Source: a virus. From it: a DNA stretch of 23,224 nucleotides. The notes under the pieces are model-generated. The model was not told the origin of the DNA, made no database searches, and worked only from the letters and a program-made list of their open reading frames with translations. Positions within the stretch are counted from its first letter, which is position 1. Every line of letters starts with the position of its first letter. Both the position numbers and the translations under genes were made by a program. Positions 142 through 15,640 of this stretch are shown here, piece by piece. Location: positions 1 through 23,224 of the IMG/VR virus record IMGVR_UViG_3300021962_000678. One strand, 5' to 3'.

Positions 142-170
142 ATCATAGCACGGTCAAGGGTCAGTGTCAA
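142..170 (-). promoter_or_regulatory. Consensus sigma70-type promoter (probable early promoter)
   Basis: Read on the minus strand, TTGACA (170-165) is followed after exactly 17 nt by TATGAT (147-142). A TGC immediately before TATGAT also matches an extended -10. The predicted start is near 135, upstream of the small ORF at 116. The -35 box overlaps the stop codon (TGA, 169-167) of the preceding structural gene. This is the form expected for host-polymerase early promoters of T4-like cyanophages. Confidence 0.8.
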
Positions 171-916
171 CCCCTTTCTCCATTGATAACATATTCTCTA
201 TTATCTCCAGGATAATCATTCGGGGTAGAACCAAGATACTCTGGAATGTTTTTACTCACATCCTTTCTTTCTCCATAAACAACATAAGAACAATTAATTG
301 GACCTCCCAAATTATTCTTAATAATAATTCTTTGACCCCACTCAATTTTTTCGACAAAAAGTTCCTGATAGACACCAATAGAAGTTAGAGTAACACCAAT
401 CGTTTCTGCATCAACAAGATTTTTCCAATATTCTGGAAGTTCAATAACGTTGCTTTCTACTAATTTTCCTCGCAAATATACTTCTGCATCGGGTCCCTCA
501 AGACAAATGTATCTCAATCTATAATTTTGTTTTGTTGGATGTGGAATATCGAATGATTTTTTACTAGAAATTTGACTATAGATATCTGTAATTGTTGTTC
601 CAGTAATGTTGCCATTAACTTCTAAATTCCTACCAATGTAAACATCCCTGCTAAAATTAGTTTGATCGGCCTCTACATTAAAGGTTGGAATTGGACCACT
701 GTTTCTTTCCAATGTAACTGTAGCAGTGCTACTACCATTCAAGTGCATGTAAACATAATCTGATGGAGACTCTACGGTGTTCACCAAAACCATAGAGACA
801 TCGTTGAGATTAAAGTATCCATCAAAAGGATCTAATGAAAAATCATCATTATCTCTATACTCAATACCAACTCCAGGACCGGTAAAGGTACCATATCTTC
901 TAAAGGTAAATGCCAT
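167..916 (-). CDS. Virion structural / tail-fibre-like protein A (249 aa)
   Basis: A 249-residue protein with two parts. Residues 90-112 carry a tail-fibre-like beta pattern (DVYIGRNLEVNGNITGTTIT). Residues 121-222 form a domain with the anchors IPHPTKQ, CLEGPDAEVY-RGKL, IELPEYW-NLVD and GERKDV. The same domain, with the same anchor order, closes the next protein (916-1578), so the two are paralogous at their C-termini. I know this IPHPTK/LEGPE/ELPEYW pattern from C-termini of phage structural and fibre-like proteins, but no biochemical role is established. The start ATG (916-914) overlaps the stop of the upstream gene by one base, so translation is probably coupled. It ends the long leftward late structural unit. 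A peripheral baseplate or fibre location is inferred from context. Confidence 0.72.
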   Translation of the reverse strand: MAFTFRRYGTFTGPGVGIEYRDNDDFSLDPFDGYFNLNDVSMVLVNTVESPSDYVYMHLNGSSTATVTLERNSGPIPTFNVEADQTNFSRDVYIGRNLEVNGNITGTTITDIYSQISSKKSFDIPHPTKQNYRLRYICLEGPDAEVYLRGKLVESNVIELPEYWKNLVDAETIGVTLTSIGVYQELFVEKIEWGQRIIIKNNLGGPINCSYVVYGERKDVSKNIPEYLGSTPNDYPGDNREYVINGERG

Positions 917-1578
917 TACGAATCAATCTCCGTTACTAACTGAGGTACGTCTTTTCTTGTTCCAAAAATATGATAAAAACAATTCACAGGAATTCCTGGT
1001 TTTGCCTGAAGATAAACTTTATTATCTCCAATTCTTTTTACGATAATATCTTGATGAGCTCCAATTGGAGTTAAAGATACTGTAATTGTACTTTCGTCTA
1101 CCAAATTTGTCCAATATTCGGGAAGTTCAATCTCAGTCTTATTCAACAACCTTCCGCGAACGTAAACACCATTTTCGGGTCCTTCTAAACAAGTATGAAC
1201 TAATTGCTTTCCTTGTTTGGTTGGATGAGGAATTACAAAGTTTTTAATAGCAGCTTGAAGAACTGTAGTTCTCACAACCTTTGCTTCAATATATGTTGAT
1301 TTTAAAAGTAAATCAACTCTTACAAAACTTTGAAATCTTGAATATAATCTTGACCATAGAGAATAAAGTGGATTTGATTTTGCATCAGGATTTGTAAGAG
1401 GACCCAACATCAAAGTTGCTTTTGTTGTATTATGTGCTCCCGCTTCTCCTGCCTGAAGAGGACCCTCAACAAAAGCAGAACCATTAATTTTATTTTTCCC
1501 AACTCCAAGTGCTTTTGGTACTCCAGCACCAACCATCATTTGCCCACCAATTGCATTATCATCCATTAAAAATGCCAT
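916..1578 (-). CDS. Virion structural / tail-fibre-like protein B (220 aa)
   Basis: A 220-residue protein whose residues 112-212 repeat the domain of its downstream neighbour: IPHPTKQ, CLEGPENGVYVRGRL, IELPEYWTNLVDE, LTPIG and GTRKDV. Its N-terminal half (1-105) is different, with glycine-rich stretches followed by a probable helical segment, so the pair shares a C-terminal module but not the N-terminal attachment part. The start at 1578 is well supported by a strong Shine-Dalgarno (AGGAGAG) a few bases upstream. It lies 11 nt after the preceding gene's stop and overlaps the next gene by one base. Likely an accessory virion protein at the baseplate periphery or a short fibre; a more exact assignment is not possible from sequence alone. 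Confidence 0.72.
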   Translation of the reverse strand: MAFLMDDNAIGGQMMVGAGVPKALGVGKNKINGSAFVEGPLQAGEAGAHNTTKATLMLGPLTNPDAKSNPLYSLWSRLYSRFQSFVRVDLLLKSTYIEAKVVRTTVLQAAIKNFVIPHPTKQGKQLVHTCLEGPENGVYVRGRLLNKTEIELPEYWTNLVDESTITVSLTPIGAHQDIIVKRIGDNKVYLQAKPGIPVNCFYHIFGTRKDVPQLVTEIDS

Positions 1579-2295: not shown

Positions 2296-5200
2296 TCATT
2301 GCTCGCTTGTAGATTCGGGAGTTCCTGGAATATTAAGTCTTGGGTCATTACTACGAACATCAGTGCCAGACCTTTGAATAGCACTTGGAGGAGTAGTGAC
2401 CTGAGCAGTGATGCTCTCCTGAAGAGTTGCATAGACTCTTGTTTGGGGTCCAGCAGTCTTATAGTATCCCGCAAATGGAATACCCTCATCATAGTAAACA
2501 GCACCATAATATGCTCTTCCGTCAACGTAACCAGTTTGCTTAAGACCAACAAGGTCTGTAACTTGCACAAGTTTTTCTGGGGGAAGTAAAGGATCTCTCA
2601 CAACACGGAATACTGGTCTAAACGAAGCATTAATGCCAGTTAATGATGGCATTGATATTTCTGGGTAAACATTAAATCCAACACCAGGATTTAAAACTTT
2701 CACCGATTTAATTTTTCCAAATGCATCACAATCATACGAAAGTTCAGCTCCATTATTTGGAATTATTTGAAGTTGGTCTTCACCACATCGGTAGTTAATT
2801 CCGGGGTTCTCCACAATTACCTCATCCAAAACAAGAGTCACTGGATATCCAGGACCCTGTTCTAATGGTGGCAAATATCCATTTCCAGGATCTGCAACAA
2901 TTACTTTATCAACAACTCCTCTACCACCAATTTTTTTAGCACAAGGTGGAGGAATAAGTATTGCAGATATTCCCATTGGATTATTAGTCCAAGATGTTTT
3001 ATTGTCAGAGAATACTACATCTCTACTAATAAAAAGAGCGACACCCATTGGGTTAGTTGTAAATACAGATTCATCTTTTCCACCTTTTTCTGTCTTAAAA
3101 TTCTCCAATTCAATTACAATATCATACTTTCCGGGTGTGGCATTAAAAGTATATTGAATTTTCTCTCCAACAAAATCAGTTGTTTTAAATATTTCTCTTC
3201 CACCAACCTTTAGAACTGCACTATTGTCTGATTGGAAATTAAATTTATAAGTTCCCGCATAAGGAAAATCGACATTTGACCAAGTTAGAGTAAATTTACC
3301 AATGTTTTCAGAGACTTGAGGAGAAACTGAAAATTCATTCATGTATTTACTCCACCTCTTATCCACATAACCAAACAAAGAGGGCCCAGAATAACTTACG
3401 CCATTCTTCGTTACACTCTGCGAAGTTTTTGGTGCTGGAGAAGACGATCCTTTTACATTTCCAATAGTAATCTTAATGTTCTGGTCGTCTCCATCAGCAT
3501 CTCTAATACCAAGAGTATTTTGTCCATTCAAAATAGGTCCTCTTGAAGCTGGCCCAGCACCTATAATTTGAATTGGACCATACTTTTTGCCTCCAGTAAA
3601 CTTCCCAGATCCTTTATCACTATCATTTTGTTTACTAGGATCTCTTTTCAATCTTACGCTACCATCATCTGCAGGAATAACCACCTCTTTTGCTGCCATT
3701 CCAGCAGTAGAAGGATTATCATCTACGTCCATTGAGAATGTAATCTCTCCGGAACCAGATCCATCAACTTGAAGATAAAAACTTGCACCTTGTTGAATAA
3801 ATTTTGGTTTTAAATTGGCAGAAGGTTGTTGAGTAGAAGGAGATCTCCAATCTTGAGTACTAAAAATTTTTGTATCAATTACAGAACTGGTTTCTTGTGG
3901 AGTATTCTCTAGTTCAATTGAAATGGTATGAAGACCTTTTTCCAAAAATACTTTTTGAGATTTGACTCTATCAACCAATCCTTCTTTAACCCACTTCTGA
4001 TCACCCGAAGTAGTTACATCAAAAGCTATTTTTCCATCAACATAAATTCTAGCAGTGTTATCCCTTTGAACTTGGAATTTGTAGAATCCCCTATAAGGAA
4101 CATCCAATTTCCAAGAATTTCTATGAATAACTCCACTACCATCACTTCCAGGAGTATCTAGCGGAAGAACGGGAGATATAGCATAACGATTAAAAAAGTT
4201 TGCCCATCCCTTGTTTCTTACAGGATACCAAGTTTGATCAGAACCAGGAAATCTTGTAGTCCAAATTGGATTGGGTGGGCATCTTCCAGTTTGGACGGGA
4301 GGTTGTTCTTGGGGAACAGGTGGAAGTGGAGCATCAATAATCATCGATACTCCCATAGGATTTTGATACCAGGATTTTGAAGAGATTATTTCAGTAACTG
4401 TTGAAGTTGCCGAAGTGTCTCCAACTTCAAAAACTAAATCAAATGTACTTCTTCCATCTGGTGTTTCTCTTTTATTAGTTGCCTTGAAGGATCCAATGTT
4501 TGATGTGATTTGAATATCATCATTATCATTGTCAGATTGTATATGGTCTGCAAAAATTCTATCAGAGTCGCCAGTTGCACCTTCTCTATTTTTTGTGCCA
4601 TTTTTAACTATACCTTGCTCAACACCACCAGACTTTGTAGATGAAGCTGATATTTTAAACTTGCTGTTTGGATTTATCTTAATAGTTTCTTTTCTGCTTT
4701 GTCCACTTTTAGTATTTCCCTTTAATGTAAATGAATAATCATCACTGACAAAAGAGAATTTCATCTTATCAGTATTTCTTCCGTCTCCAGTTATTGTGAA
4801 AGTAACGTCAACTGTGCTTGGTTTAGAAACTGGAGTGTTTACCTTCTCAGTTACTGGAACATTCAATAAATCAACTTTTATAATATGATTACCCTCTTGT
4901 ATTGTTTTTTGTAGAGGTGATGGATTTTCTTTAAAATCTTTTAAATTTCCAATAAGACTATTATCAACATAAACTTGTGCAGTATTATCACACACACCCC
5001 TAAAAATATACTCTCCACTGATAGGGAAGTTCAATTCCCACTCCATTGAAAAAACTTTTCCAGCCTCATCACTTCCAGTAACATCAGATGGTCTAACGGG
5101 AGATACTGCATATTGATTCATAAACTCTCCCCAGTCGGGGAAAGTTACTGGAGTGGTATCTTGCGTTGCATATGATTTATCGGGAGCGGTAACTCTATCG

Positions 5201-5886
5201 GGTTGCTTCTCTCTTGTGGTCCAAAAAGGTTTCTTTAATGCTTTTTGGAATATCTCAATTTCTCTTTGAATTGGGTCAGCACCAACTCTTGTATATGTTT
5301 GTGGTTCCCAAGGACCTAGTTCTTCTCCATTGGCACCATATCTTATACCATATCCAACGTCAGTATCTTCACAAATTTCATATTCTTCAAAGTCTTCCTC
5401 ACCTTCAAATACTTCAGTTTCATCCGCAGTTTCTCCAAGTACGGCAGTTAGAACAGCACCATTTCCAAATTCACAATCATCCTTTGCTGCAACAATTGGT
5501 GCATATTGATATCCGTGCCCACCGCTTACAACATCAACTGCAAGTAGAGAACCATCTCTACCGATAACTGGATTACCTACTGCACCAATTCCACCACCAC
5601 CAAAAAATTGAATTCTTGGTGGACCACACTCCTTATATTCTTGGATACCTCCACACTTATTGTCTTTTGCAGATAAATCATTTGGAGTTAGCGTATTAAC
5701 TTCATTAATATTCAAATATCTAATGTTGTTATCACCATCCCTAAAAATAAACGTTGTTCCTGGATTATTTTTAGCATAGTTATTTGCTTCACATACAGAA
5801 ACACCATCAACATATCCAAGAGAAGGATCAATGTATCCAACTCTTATGTCGTCTTGTGATGCTGAACCAAATAAATTAAAAGACAT
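2296..5886 (-). CDS. Large virion structural protein with three PA14/jelly-roll-like modules (putative adhesin)
   Basis: A 1196-residue modular protein. Three related modules lie at about 248-345, 555-662 and 838-932. Each has an aromatic lead-in (F/Y-M/F-N-x-Y/F-A/S-V/I-SP), then a strand like YxFxxxxDN-A-VYVDG, then IKVxLxN or IELEN. PA14-like carbohydrate-binding beta-sandwiches look like this. The modules are joined by a motif NPMG(V/I)S with nearby SW (509-517, 945-954, 969-977). Acidic DxDxDD stretches at about 452-457 and 796-801 could bind calcium. Four short PG-x-GY/GF beta repeats (about 120-130, 998-1007, 1027-1033, 1066-1075) match a common phage structural motif. There is no signal peptide or membrane segment. 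It lies five bases downstream of the gp5-like gene. Probably a receptor- or polysaccharide-contacting part of the baseplate; the carbohydrate-binding role is inferred. Confidence 0.7.
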   Translation of the reverse strand: MSFNLFGSASQDDIRVGYIDPSLGYVDGVSVCEANNYAKNNPGTTFIFRDGDNNIRYLNINEVNTLTPNDLSAKDNKCGGIQEYKECGPPRIQFFGGGGIGAVGNPVIGRDGSLLAVDVVSGGHGYQYAPIVAAKDDCEFGNGAVLTAVLGETADETEVFEGEEDFEEYEICEDTDVGYGIRYGANGEELGPWEPQTYTRVGADPIQREIEIFQKALKKPFWTTREKQPDRVTAPDKSYATQDTTPVTFPDWGEFMNQYAVSPVRPSDVTGSDEAGKVFSMEWELNFPISGEYIFRGVCDNTAQVYVDNSLIGNLKDFKENPSPLQKTIQEGNHIIKVDLLNVPVTEKVNTPVSKPSTVDVTFTITGDGRNTDKMKFSFVSDDYSFTLKGNTKSGQSRKETIKINPNSKFKISASSTKSGGVEQGIVKNGTKNREGATGDSDRIFADHIQSDNDNDDIQITSNIGSFKATNKRETPDGRSTFDLVFEVGDTSATSTVTEIISSKSWYQNPMGVSMIIDAPLPPVPQEQPPVQTGRCPPNPIWTTRFPGSDQTWYPVRNKGWANFFNRYAISPVLPLDTPGSDGSGVIHRNSWKLDVPYRGFYKFQVQRDNTARIYVDGKIAFDVTTSGDQKWVKEGLVDRVKSQKVFLEKGLHTISIELENTPQETSSVIDTKIFSTQDWRSPSTQQPSANLKPKFIQQGASFYLQVDGSGSGEITFSMDVDDNPSTAGMAAKEVVIPADDGSVRLKRDPSKQNDSDKGSGKFTGGKKYGPIQIIGAGPASRGPILNGQNTLGIRDADGDDQNIKITIGNVKGSSSPAPKTSQSVTKNGVSYSGPSLFGYVDKRWSKYMNEFSVSPQVSENIGKFTLTWSNVDFPYAGTYKFNFQSDNSAVLKVGGREIFKTTDFVGEKIQYTFNATPGKYDIVIELENFKTEKGGKDESVFTTNPMGVALFISRDVVFSDNKTSWTNNPMGISAILIPPPCAKKIGGRGVVDKVIVADPGNGYLPPLEQGPGYPVTLVLDEVIVENPGINYRCGEDQLQIIPNNGAELSYDCDAFGKIKSVKVLNPGVGFNVYPEISMPSLTGINASFRPVFRVVRDPLLPPEKLVQVTDLVGLKQTGYVDGRAYYGAVYYDEGIPFAGYYKTAGPQTRVYATLQESITAQVTTPPSAIQRSGTDVRSNDPRLNIPGTPESTSEQ

Positions 5887-14743: not shown

Positions 14744-14918
14744 TGGTCATCTGCTGTTTTTGTTTTAACTCTTCTTCTTCAAGATGCTGTTGTAATAATG
14801 CAACGTATATGTCCCTCTCCCAAGGAATCATATTTTCAATTTCCCATAATGAATATTTATGGTACTGCATTAATGAAAAATTAAGTTTAAAGTAATTCTC
14901 AAGGTCCATATGGACCAT
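14730..14918 (-). CDS. 51: gp51-like hub assembly catalyst / tail chaperone, -1 frame of gp26
   Basis: A 62-residue helical protein with FKLNFSLMQYHKYSLWEIENMIPWERDIYVALLQQHLEEEE, a pattern I associate with cyanophage gp51-like proteins and with the T part of tail chaperone fusions (short, helical, preceding the tape measure). Its frame is open from 14957, overlapping gp26 by 37 nt in the -1 frame. There is no Shine-Dalgarno at a usable distance before the ATG at 14918. The T TTT TTC heptamer at 14927-14933 leads exactly into this frame, with no stop in between. It is therefore more likely made as a gp26-gp51 fusion of about 303 residues than alone. It overlaps the 847-aa tape-measure gene by 14 nt. 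Assignment to gp51 itself rests on position and this pattern. Confidence 0.72.
   Translation of the reverse strand: MVHMDLENYFKLNFSLMQYHKYSLWEIENMIPWERDIYVALLQQHLEEEELKQKQQMTNAHF
14903..14916. repeat. Perfect palindrome downstream of the slippery site
   Basis: GGTCCATATGGACC is a perfect 14-nt palindrome that can fold as a 5-bp GC-rich stem with an ATAT loop. It begins 10 nt after the T TTT TTC heptamer on the minus strand and overlaps the nominal gp51 start codon (14918-14916). It could act as the downstream stimulator of frameshifting and would also hide an independent gp51 start. Confidence 0.55.
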
Positions 14919-14920
14919 AC

Positions 14921-15640
14921 TTATGCGAAAAAACTTGCTAACCCTTCTAACACCACTTCACTTTCAACTTCAGTTACTGGATTCGTCACCTTAATTGTAT
15001 GAGAAAGTTTTGGCATTGTCTCAAAGAACCTCTCAATATCTTTGAACTGAGATGAGTTCATTGATTCTAAAAAGTCTGCCATTTCTTTTTTAGTCACATC
15101 TGCGGCAGTCCAAACTTCTTCTTCAGTAAAGATTTTATCAATGCAAGATGCAATCAATTCAAAAGATTGATCCATTGCATTCTTATTACCAAAATCAAAA
15201 TTACTCTTGATAAATTGGTCCAAAGAAGGATACTTCATTTCCATCATAATAGAATCATCAAGTTTGATTCTGTTTGAATGCTCATCATTTTTTTGGACTT
15301 TAATATCATCCAAATTAATTTTTACTGGAACTTGAGTTTCGCCATCATCAGGGCAAATAATATTAACTTCAAGTTCTTCTCCAACAGACTTACCACGAAT
15401 ATTTAAAAACAAATATTCAATGTCAAAAGTAGGAAGAGATTCTACTTTAATATTTTTTGTAAGGATACAACTTTTGATAACTGTTTTAATTGCTGTTGTA
15501 ATTTGCTTCGTATCTTCACTCTCTAAAGCAATTACAAGCAACTTTTCTTCTTTAACAAGAAACGGTCTATATTGAATAGTCTCTCCAGTTGAAGGCAATT
15601 CAAGTTCATAAGTTGGTGTAGAAATCTTAGGTAAAGGCAT
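14921..15640 (-). CDS. 26: Baseplate hub subunit gp26-like / tail assembly chaperone
   Basis: A 239-residue protein with the T4 gp26 pattern: an N-terminal PTYELELPSTGETIQYRPFLVKEEKLLVIALES, then FDIEYLFLNIRGKSVGEEL, a beta part with the single Cys of NIICPDDG, and KINLDDIKV. T4 gp26 is about 208 residues. In T4 it is classed as a hub protein; its location immediately before gp51 and the tape-measure genes, and the frameshift signal at its end, suggest a G/GT-like chaperone of the tape measure. The start at 15640 is supported by AGGA 5 nt upstream. A late-type CATAAATA box lies at 15668-15675, making this the first gene of the long leftward late unit. Confidence 0.82.
   Translation of the reverse strand: MPLPKISTPTYELELPSTGETIQYRPFLVKEEKLLVIALESEDTKQITTAIKTVIKSCILTKNIKVESLPTFDIEYLFLNIRGKSVGEELEVNIICPDDGETQVPVKINLDDIKVQKNDEHSNRIKLDDSIMMEMKYPSLDQFIKSNFDFGNKNAMDQSFELIASCIDKIFTEEEVWTAADVTKKEMADFLESMNSSQFKDIERFFETMPKLSHTIKVTNPVTEVESEVVLEGLASFFA
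14927..14948 (-). promoter_or_regulatory. Programmed -1 ribosomal frameshift site (gp26 to gp51)
   Basis: Read on the minus strand: AGAAGGG (14948-14942), an 8-nt spacer (TTAGCAAG), then TTTTTTC (14933-14927), which in the gp26 frame is T TTT TTC (Phe-Phe). The gp26 stop TAA follows one codon later. A -1 slip gives CGC ATA AGT ATG and enters the gp51 frame. An upstream Shine-Dalgarno-like element about 10 nt before the heptamer plus a downstream hairpin is the arrangement known from E. coli dnaX. This would add Arg-Ile-Ser and the 62 gp51 residues to gp26 residue 238. Confidence 0.75.

Follow-up and report, generated by a model that had tools for sequence, protein, structure and literature searches.

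Phage lambda makes its tail chaperones G and GT, a short and a long form, from one gene by −1 frameshifting, and this gene lies between those for the tail tube and the tape measure. According to Xu, Hendrix and Duda in 2004, the tail frameshift is reportedly conserved in long-tailed phages. In E. coli, the dnaX frameshift cassette is composed of a Shine-Dalgarno (SD)-like run, a slippery heptamer and a hairpin. For T4-like phages, the abstract of the 2022 work by Vladimirov and co-workers reportedly names genes 26 and 51 of T4 and describes frameshifting as conserved in several groups.

That work (Vladimirov, Gautam and Davidson 2022, Virology 566:9-15) reportedly identified the tail chaperones of T4-like phages, frameshifted in some groups and encoded by two genes in others. 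Two other papers cite it, for T4-like phages with short and long chaperone genes instead of frameshifting (PRFect, PMC10885494) and for poly-T slippery sites in the TAC-N genes of T4-like phages (PMC12846349). It was also reported that gp51 of cyanophages and marine vibriophage is without the first ~200 residues (Sullivan et al. 2010, PMC3037559). The locus described below has the same genes, and the same idea of TAC-N and TAC-NC products, as the published system is reported to have. Our central claim is therefore not new, since it has been published for T4-like phages, and the reinterpretation of gp26/gp51 that the initial annotation of this DNA proposed was already in print (Vladimirov et al. 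2022). Apparently new, in that none was found in the papers searched, are the fixation of the heptamer over 288 junctions, the frequent lack of a gp51 start, the codon bias toward an SD-like run and the covariation in the hairpin.

The gp26/gp51 locus

The window, which is the whole stretch of DNA analysed, is the 23,224-nucleotide IMG/VR virus record IMGVR_UViG_3300021962_000678, which comes from an ocean virus and has T4-type tail genes on board. The gene order on its minus strand is tail tube, gp26, gp51 and a large ORF that probably encodes the tape measure protein. The tail tube gene (17061–16138, minus strand) matches PF23849 (E=1.6e-19) and phrog_45 (E=5e-36). Gp26 (15640–14921, minus strand), the candidate TAC-N or short G-like chaperone, has 239 residues. 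It matches phrog_150 (E=5e-81) and PF12322 T4_baseplate (E=2.8e-77), the latter over the whole family model (positions 2–219 of 219). Gp51 as annotated in relatives (14918–14730, minus strand; 62 residues), the putative TAC-C part, lies in the −1 frame and matches phrog_634 (E=7.7e-28) as well as the C-terminal part of phrog_150.

The start of the next ORF (14743–12200, minus strand; 847 residues) overlaps the end of gp51 by 14 nt. Judged by its position and by weak hits to tape measure families, phrog_3547 (E=1.2e-7) among them, it is a likely tape measure gene; the tail tube side of gp26 is clear, and the tape measure side is probable on weak matches only. The large gene that follows gp51 in phages phiM7 and Cr30 likewise matches tape measure PHROGs. 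A second large ORF follows in the window (12195–9262, minus strand; 977 residues). Both it and the 847-residue ORF have weak tape measure/endolysin PHROG matches, and either could be the tape measure. Farther along the same strand, 2296–5886 encodes a virion protein of 1196 residues that contains a PA14 domain (PF07691, E=7e-13) and matches head and tail lysozyme PHROGs. Two adjacent ORFs of 249 and 220 residues at 167–1578 (minus strand) match the same PHROGs, 17490 and 28536, and are likely a tandem duplication.

On the minus strand, the 3′ end of gp26 reads AGT-TTT-TTC-GCA-TAA, with the slippery heptamer T TTT TTC in the gp26 frame at 14933–14927 and the stop TAA (14923–14921) one codon past it. 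Gp51 sits in the −1 frame, which is open from before the heptamer to 14730. Upstream is the SD-like run AGAAGGG (14948–14942), separated from the heptamer by an 8-nt spacer (14941–14934); 10 nt downstream is the hairpin GGTCC-ATAT-GGACC (14916–14903), with arms at 14916–14912 and 14907–14903 and an ATAT loop. All of these minus-strand elements had been proposed in the initial annotation, along with a −1 frame running without a stop into gp51 to give a predicted fusion of about 303 residues, and each was confirmed in the sequence. The predicted frameshift product, a GT-like TAC-NC (15640–14730, minus strand), is 303 residues long and consists of gp26 residues 1–236, FF, then RISMVHMDLENYF...; the predicted junction-spanning peptide in the window is ...ASFFRISMVHMDLENYFK, with ASFFRISMVH across the junction. 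The 19 CDSs of the window contain 44 in-frame X XXY YYZ heptamers, and only at the one ending gp26 does the −1 frame leave its gene, overrunning it by 188 nt.

Scans of IMG/VR and of named phages yielded 288 non-redundant gp26/gp51 junctions, including those of cyanophages, Vibrio KVP40, Sinorhizobium phiM7, Pseudomonas pf16 and Caulobacter Cr30. The gp26 sequences fall into 26 clusters at 50% identity and 82 at 70%, and the probabilities given below treat clusters as independent. Every junction has the heptamer at the end of gp26, as TTTTTTC in 255, TTTTTTA in 21 and TTTTTTT in 12. The stop is one codon past the heptamer in 261 of the 288. At four loci (L278, L304, L323 and L338) gp26 extends eight codons past the heptamer, not one, and both frames are open over the overlap.

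Putative stimulators

An SD-like GAGGG or GAAGGG located 8–10 nt upstream of the heptamer is commoner than codon choice predicts. Glu-Gly is encoded by GAGGGN or GAAGGG in 106 of 133 instances at this site, compared with 22 of 73 in the rest of gp26 (Fisher P=3e-12, 80% clusters), and the bias is also seen in coarser clusters (P=5e-5 at 70%, 7e-4 at 50%).

On the other side of the heptamer, the downstream 40 nt fold with a mean of −7.8 kcal/mol, compared with −3.7 in synonymous randomisations. This excess fades with distance, from a mean z of −1.74 at offset 5 to about −0.2 from 60 on. In the window clade (76 distinct sequences), all 5 pairs of the stem show two-sided changes. The double changes occupy 45 cells, against 11.0 ± 5.3 in shuffles; none of 500 shuffles reached this value, and at most 13 were counted when the stem was slid. 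The P-HM2 clade has a stem that differs from that of the window and is conserved without covariation; no compensatory changes were found in this P-HM2-type stem (A3). The hairpin is not universal, being weak in the ACG-2014 types and several others. Because it covaries in the window clade, gives way to another stem in the P-HM2 clade and is little developed in some clades, it would be a likely but replaceable stimulator.

The hairpin and the SD-like run could instead reflect protein coding or some other RNA function, with the heptamer acting alone. The Glu-Gly motif is indeed part of gp26, and both the variation of the hairpin between clades, with weak forms in some, and the P-HM2-type stem lacking compensatory change would agree with this. 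However, it does not explain the double changes at all five stem pairs in the window clade, a folding excess over synonymous controls that appears only near the site, or a Glu-Gly codon choice that is biased just there. We regard action of the heptamer alone as rather unlikely; that the SD-like run and hairpin are real, replaceable stimulators is slightly more probable than not.

The start of gp51 and conservation of the heptamer

The initial annotation found gp51 to be without a usable SD of its own. This stands in that no good SD was found, but ATG codons do exist in the −1 frame of the window, at 14918–14916 and 14909–14907 (minus strand). The first lies 3 nt past the gp26 stop, and an ATG is present there in many close relatives; thus reinitiation could add some free gp51. 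It might also be the whole explanation, with gp51 a separate small protein made by termination-reinitiation at this ATG. Annotators do list gp51 as a gene, and phage S-SCSM1 (see below) looks so arranged. However, when relatives were clustered at 70% identity, 45 of 80 clusters lacked ATG, GTG and TTG at every −1 codon ahead of gp51's conserved xNYY block, and among the 80 clusters no candidate gp51 start had an SD match longer than 4 nt. A gp51 start with its own ribosome-binding site in relatives, a possibility raised in the initial annotation, is thus false in general, and such a start was rejected as the general rule on the start-less clusters and the short SD matches. Reinitiation also leaves the invariant heptamer unexplained, and in T4 these domains are made as a single chain. 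Taken together, production of gp51 by reinitiation alone is very improbable.

In named records gp51 begins at scattered internal codons or is omitted, as can be understood if gp51 has no start of its own. L092, L093, L100, L090 and other named cyanophage records have gp51 either unannotated or starting at an internal ATG (P-HM2, ACG-2014a), and their −1 frame is open.

The −1 frame reaches gp51 in 286 of the 288 junctions. L226 was rejected as an exception, because the locus runs into the contig end. S-SCSM1 (L087, MK867354.2; 1510–1560) is the sole true exception. An 11-nt insertion, AATCCTAATAG, right after its gp26 stop closes the −1 frame and places gp51 in a +1/−2 relation to gp26. Either the sequence is in error here or the phage has switched to reinitiation or a different kind of shift.

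Loss of the heptamer where both genes persist was looked for and was seen in none of the 288. At 50% identity, each of the 26 clusters has a codon with T in the third position ahead of TTT (P ~1e-7, judged from codon use in the rest of gp26), and TTT encodes the first Phe throughout (P ~1e-6); for the 82 clusters at 70%, the corresponding values are 1e-18 and 1e-15. Elsewhere in gp26 the T-ending share of Ser, Asn and Asp codons is 0.41–0.8 (41–66% at the 50% level), and the TTT share of Phe codons in the same genes is 0.58–0.69. Synonymous non-slippery alternatives at the heptamer are never used among the 288 relatives. The 21 loci in which Phe-Phe has changed to Phe-Leu stay slippery (TTTTTTA), showing that the bases, not the residues, are conserved. 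The X XXY YYZ heptamer is thus conserved beyond the need of the protein. That the T run is a by-product of the conserved Phe-Phe and AT-rich codon use, with no slipping, would suit a Phe-Phe that is nearly invariant in gp26 and genes rich in A and T, but its probability is negligible, as chance or codon bias is rejected by these codon statistics and by the 44-heptamer control in the window, Phe-Phe changes to Phe-Leu without heptamer loss, and only one relative departs from an open, homologous −1 frame.

Relation to T4, HK97, lambda and dnaX

T4 gp26 and T4 gp51 each match PF12322 over the whole length. T4 gp51 has a further match to phrog_634, to which the small cyanophage gp51 belongs (BLASTP E=3e-5), and the window gp51 is collinear with residues 211–246 of T4 gp51. 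These Pfam and PHROG matches indicate that T4 gp51 is paralogous to gp26 and carries the cyanophage gp51 as a tail at its C-terminus. It is collinear with the predicted fusion and has VF at the Phe-Phe position; the ~200 residues missing from cyanophage gp51 would be supplied by the predicted frameshift. Aligned by hhalign, the 14-sequence gp26 alignment gave 98.8% probability with T4 gp26 and a weak 55% with T4 gp51 alone, the latter being outweighed because the Pfam and PHROG models settle gp51.

In T4 itself, genes 26 (short) and 51 (long) are separate and divergent, and gene 26 has the Phe codons TTC TTT and no heptamer. With two genes and no slippery site in gene 26, T4 needs no frameshift; the site is lost where the long form has its own gene. 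In the paralogue tree, T4-type gp26 and gp51 adjoin each other outside the frameshifting set, which includes KVP40; given the long branches and unfixed root of this tree, we claim no time for the duplication.

By sequence, no convincing solved relatives of gp26 were found. AlphaFold2 on 52 gp26 sequences gave a model with pLDDT 92.6. When its residues 1–96 were compared with 900 chains, the top three were 3fgx, 2ob9 (the HK97 tail assembly chaperone) and 3klu (YqbN), with Z of 8.0–7.5, which is moderate only; the next was 4.9, and Foldseek alone was weak (2ob9_B, E=1.0, prob 0.77). HK97 gp13 (2ob9) superposes on the predicted N-terminal domain of gp26 with Z 7.9 over 84 residues at 4.0 Å and 8% identity, and its solved chain of 107 residues has nothing that corresponds to the second half of gp26. 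That the best matches to the predicted structure include an established tail assembly chaperone fits a chaperone role of gp26.

The heptamer, the frame relation, the missing starts, the putative stimulators, the T4 paralogy and the HK97-like N-terminal domain all point to a G/GT-type chaperone made by −1 frameshifting. Very probably, this gp51 is produced by extending gp26 in the −1 frame, and it acts in this way; the evidence from sequence for a frameshifted gp26/gp51 chaperone is very strong. The T4-type G/GT reading in the initial annotation is supported for cyanophages, and the paralogy of T4 gp51 to gp26 and the HK97 gp13-like predicted domain support it independently; it does not hold for the organisation of T4, where the two paralogous genes stand apart.

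We infer the slipping itself, its rate and the chaperone action as follows. Gp26 and gp51 would together form a single tail assembly chaperone gene with two readings. Ribosomes would mostly stop one codon past the heptamer and make the short TAC-N of 239 residues. A minority, paused by the SD-like run and the hairpin, would shift back by one base at T TTT TTC, where tRNA-Phe re-pairs UUU-UUC as UUU-UUU, and would read on to make the long TAC-NC of 303 residues. By analogy with lambda G/GT, the short forms would coat the tape measure protein, probably the product of the next gene, and the extra C-terminal part of the long form would recruit tail tube subunits; the short/long ratio set by the slip would matter for this reason. 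T4 would make the equivalent pair from its paralogous genes 26 (short) and 51 (long).

Many cyanophage records annotate gp51 as a separate baseplate hub assembly catalyst, and others omit it. As gp51 is indicated to be the tail end of a frameshift product, the annotation of a very abundant marine virus group needs joining at this locus. The puzzling pair of T4 hub genes becomes tied to the general tail chaperone system, and the relatives offer a natural series, with one fixed heptamer and many hairpins, for testing what determines the frameshift rate in cyanobacterial hosts.

The likeness to lambda G/GT lies in a short and a long chaperone produced by −1 frameshifting, predicted here, from a place between the tail tube and probable tape measure genes. 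Lambda uses G GGA AAG, whereas here the heptamer is T TTT TTN, preceded by an SD-like run and often followed by a hairpin. Those three elements stand in the same order as in the dnaX cassette, which differs in its heptamer (A AAA AAG), in giving a shortened product, and in the gene and its role. We lean slightly toward the view that marine T4-like phages carry a dnaX-like cassette. With the heptamer fixed and the hairpin rebuilt from one clade to the next, replaceable stimulators would tune the short/long chaperone ratio, and T4 would have lost the cassette when a separate gene arose for the long form.
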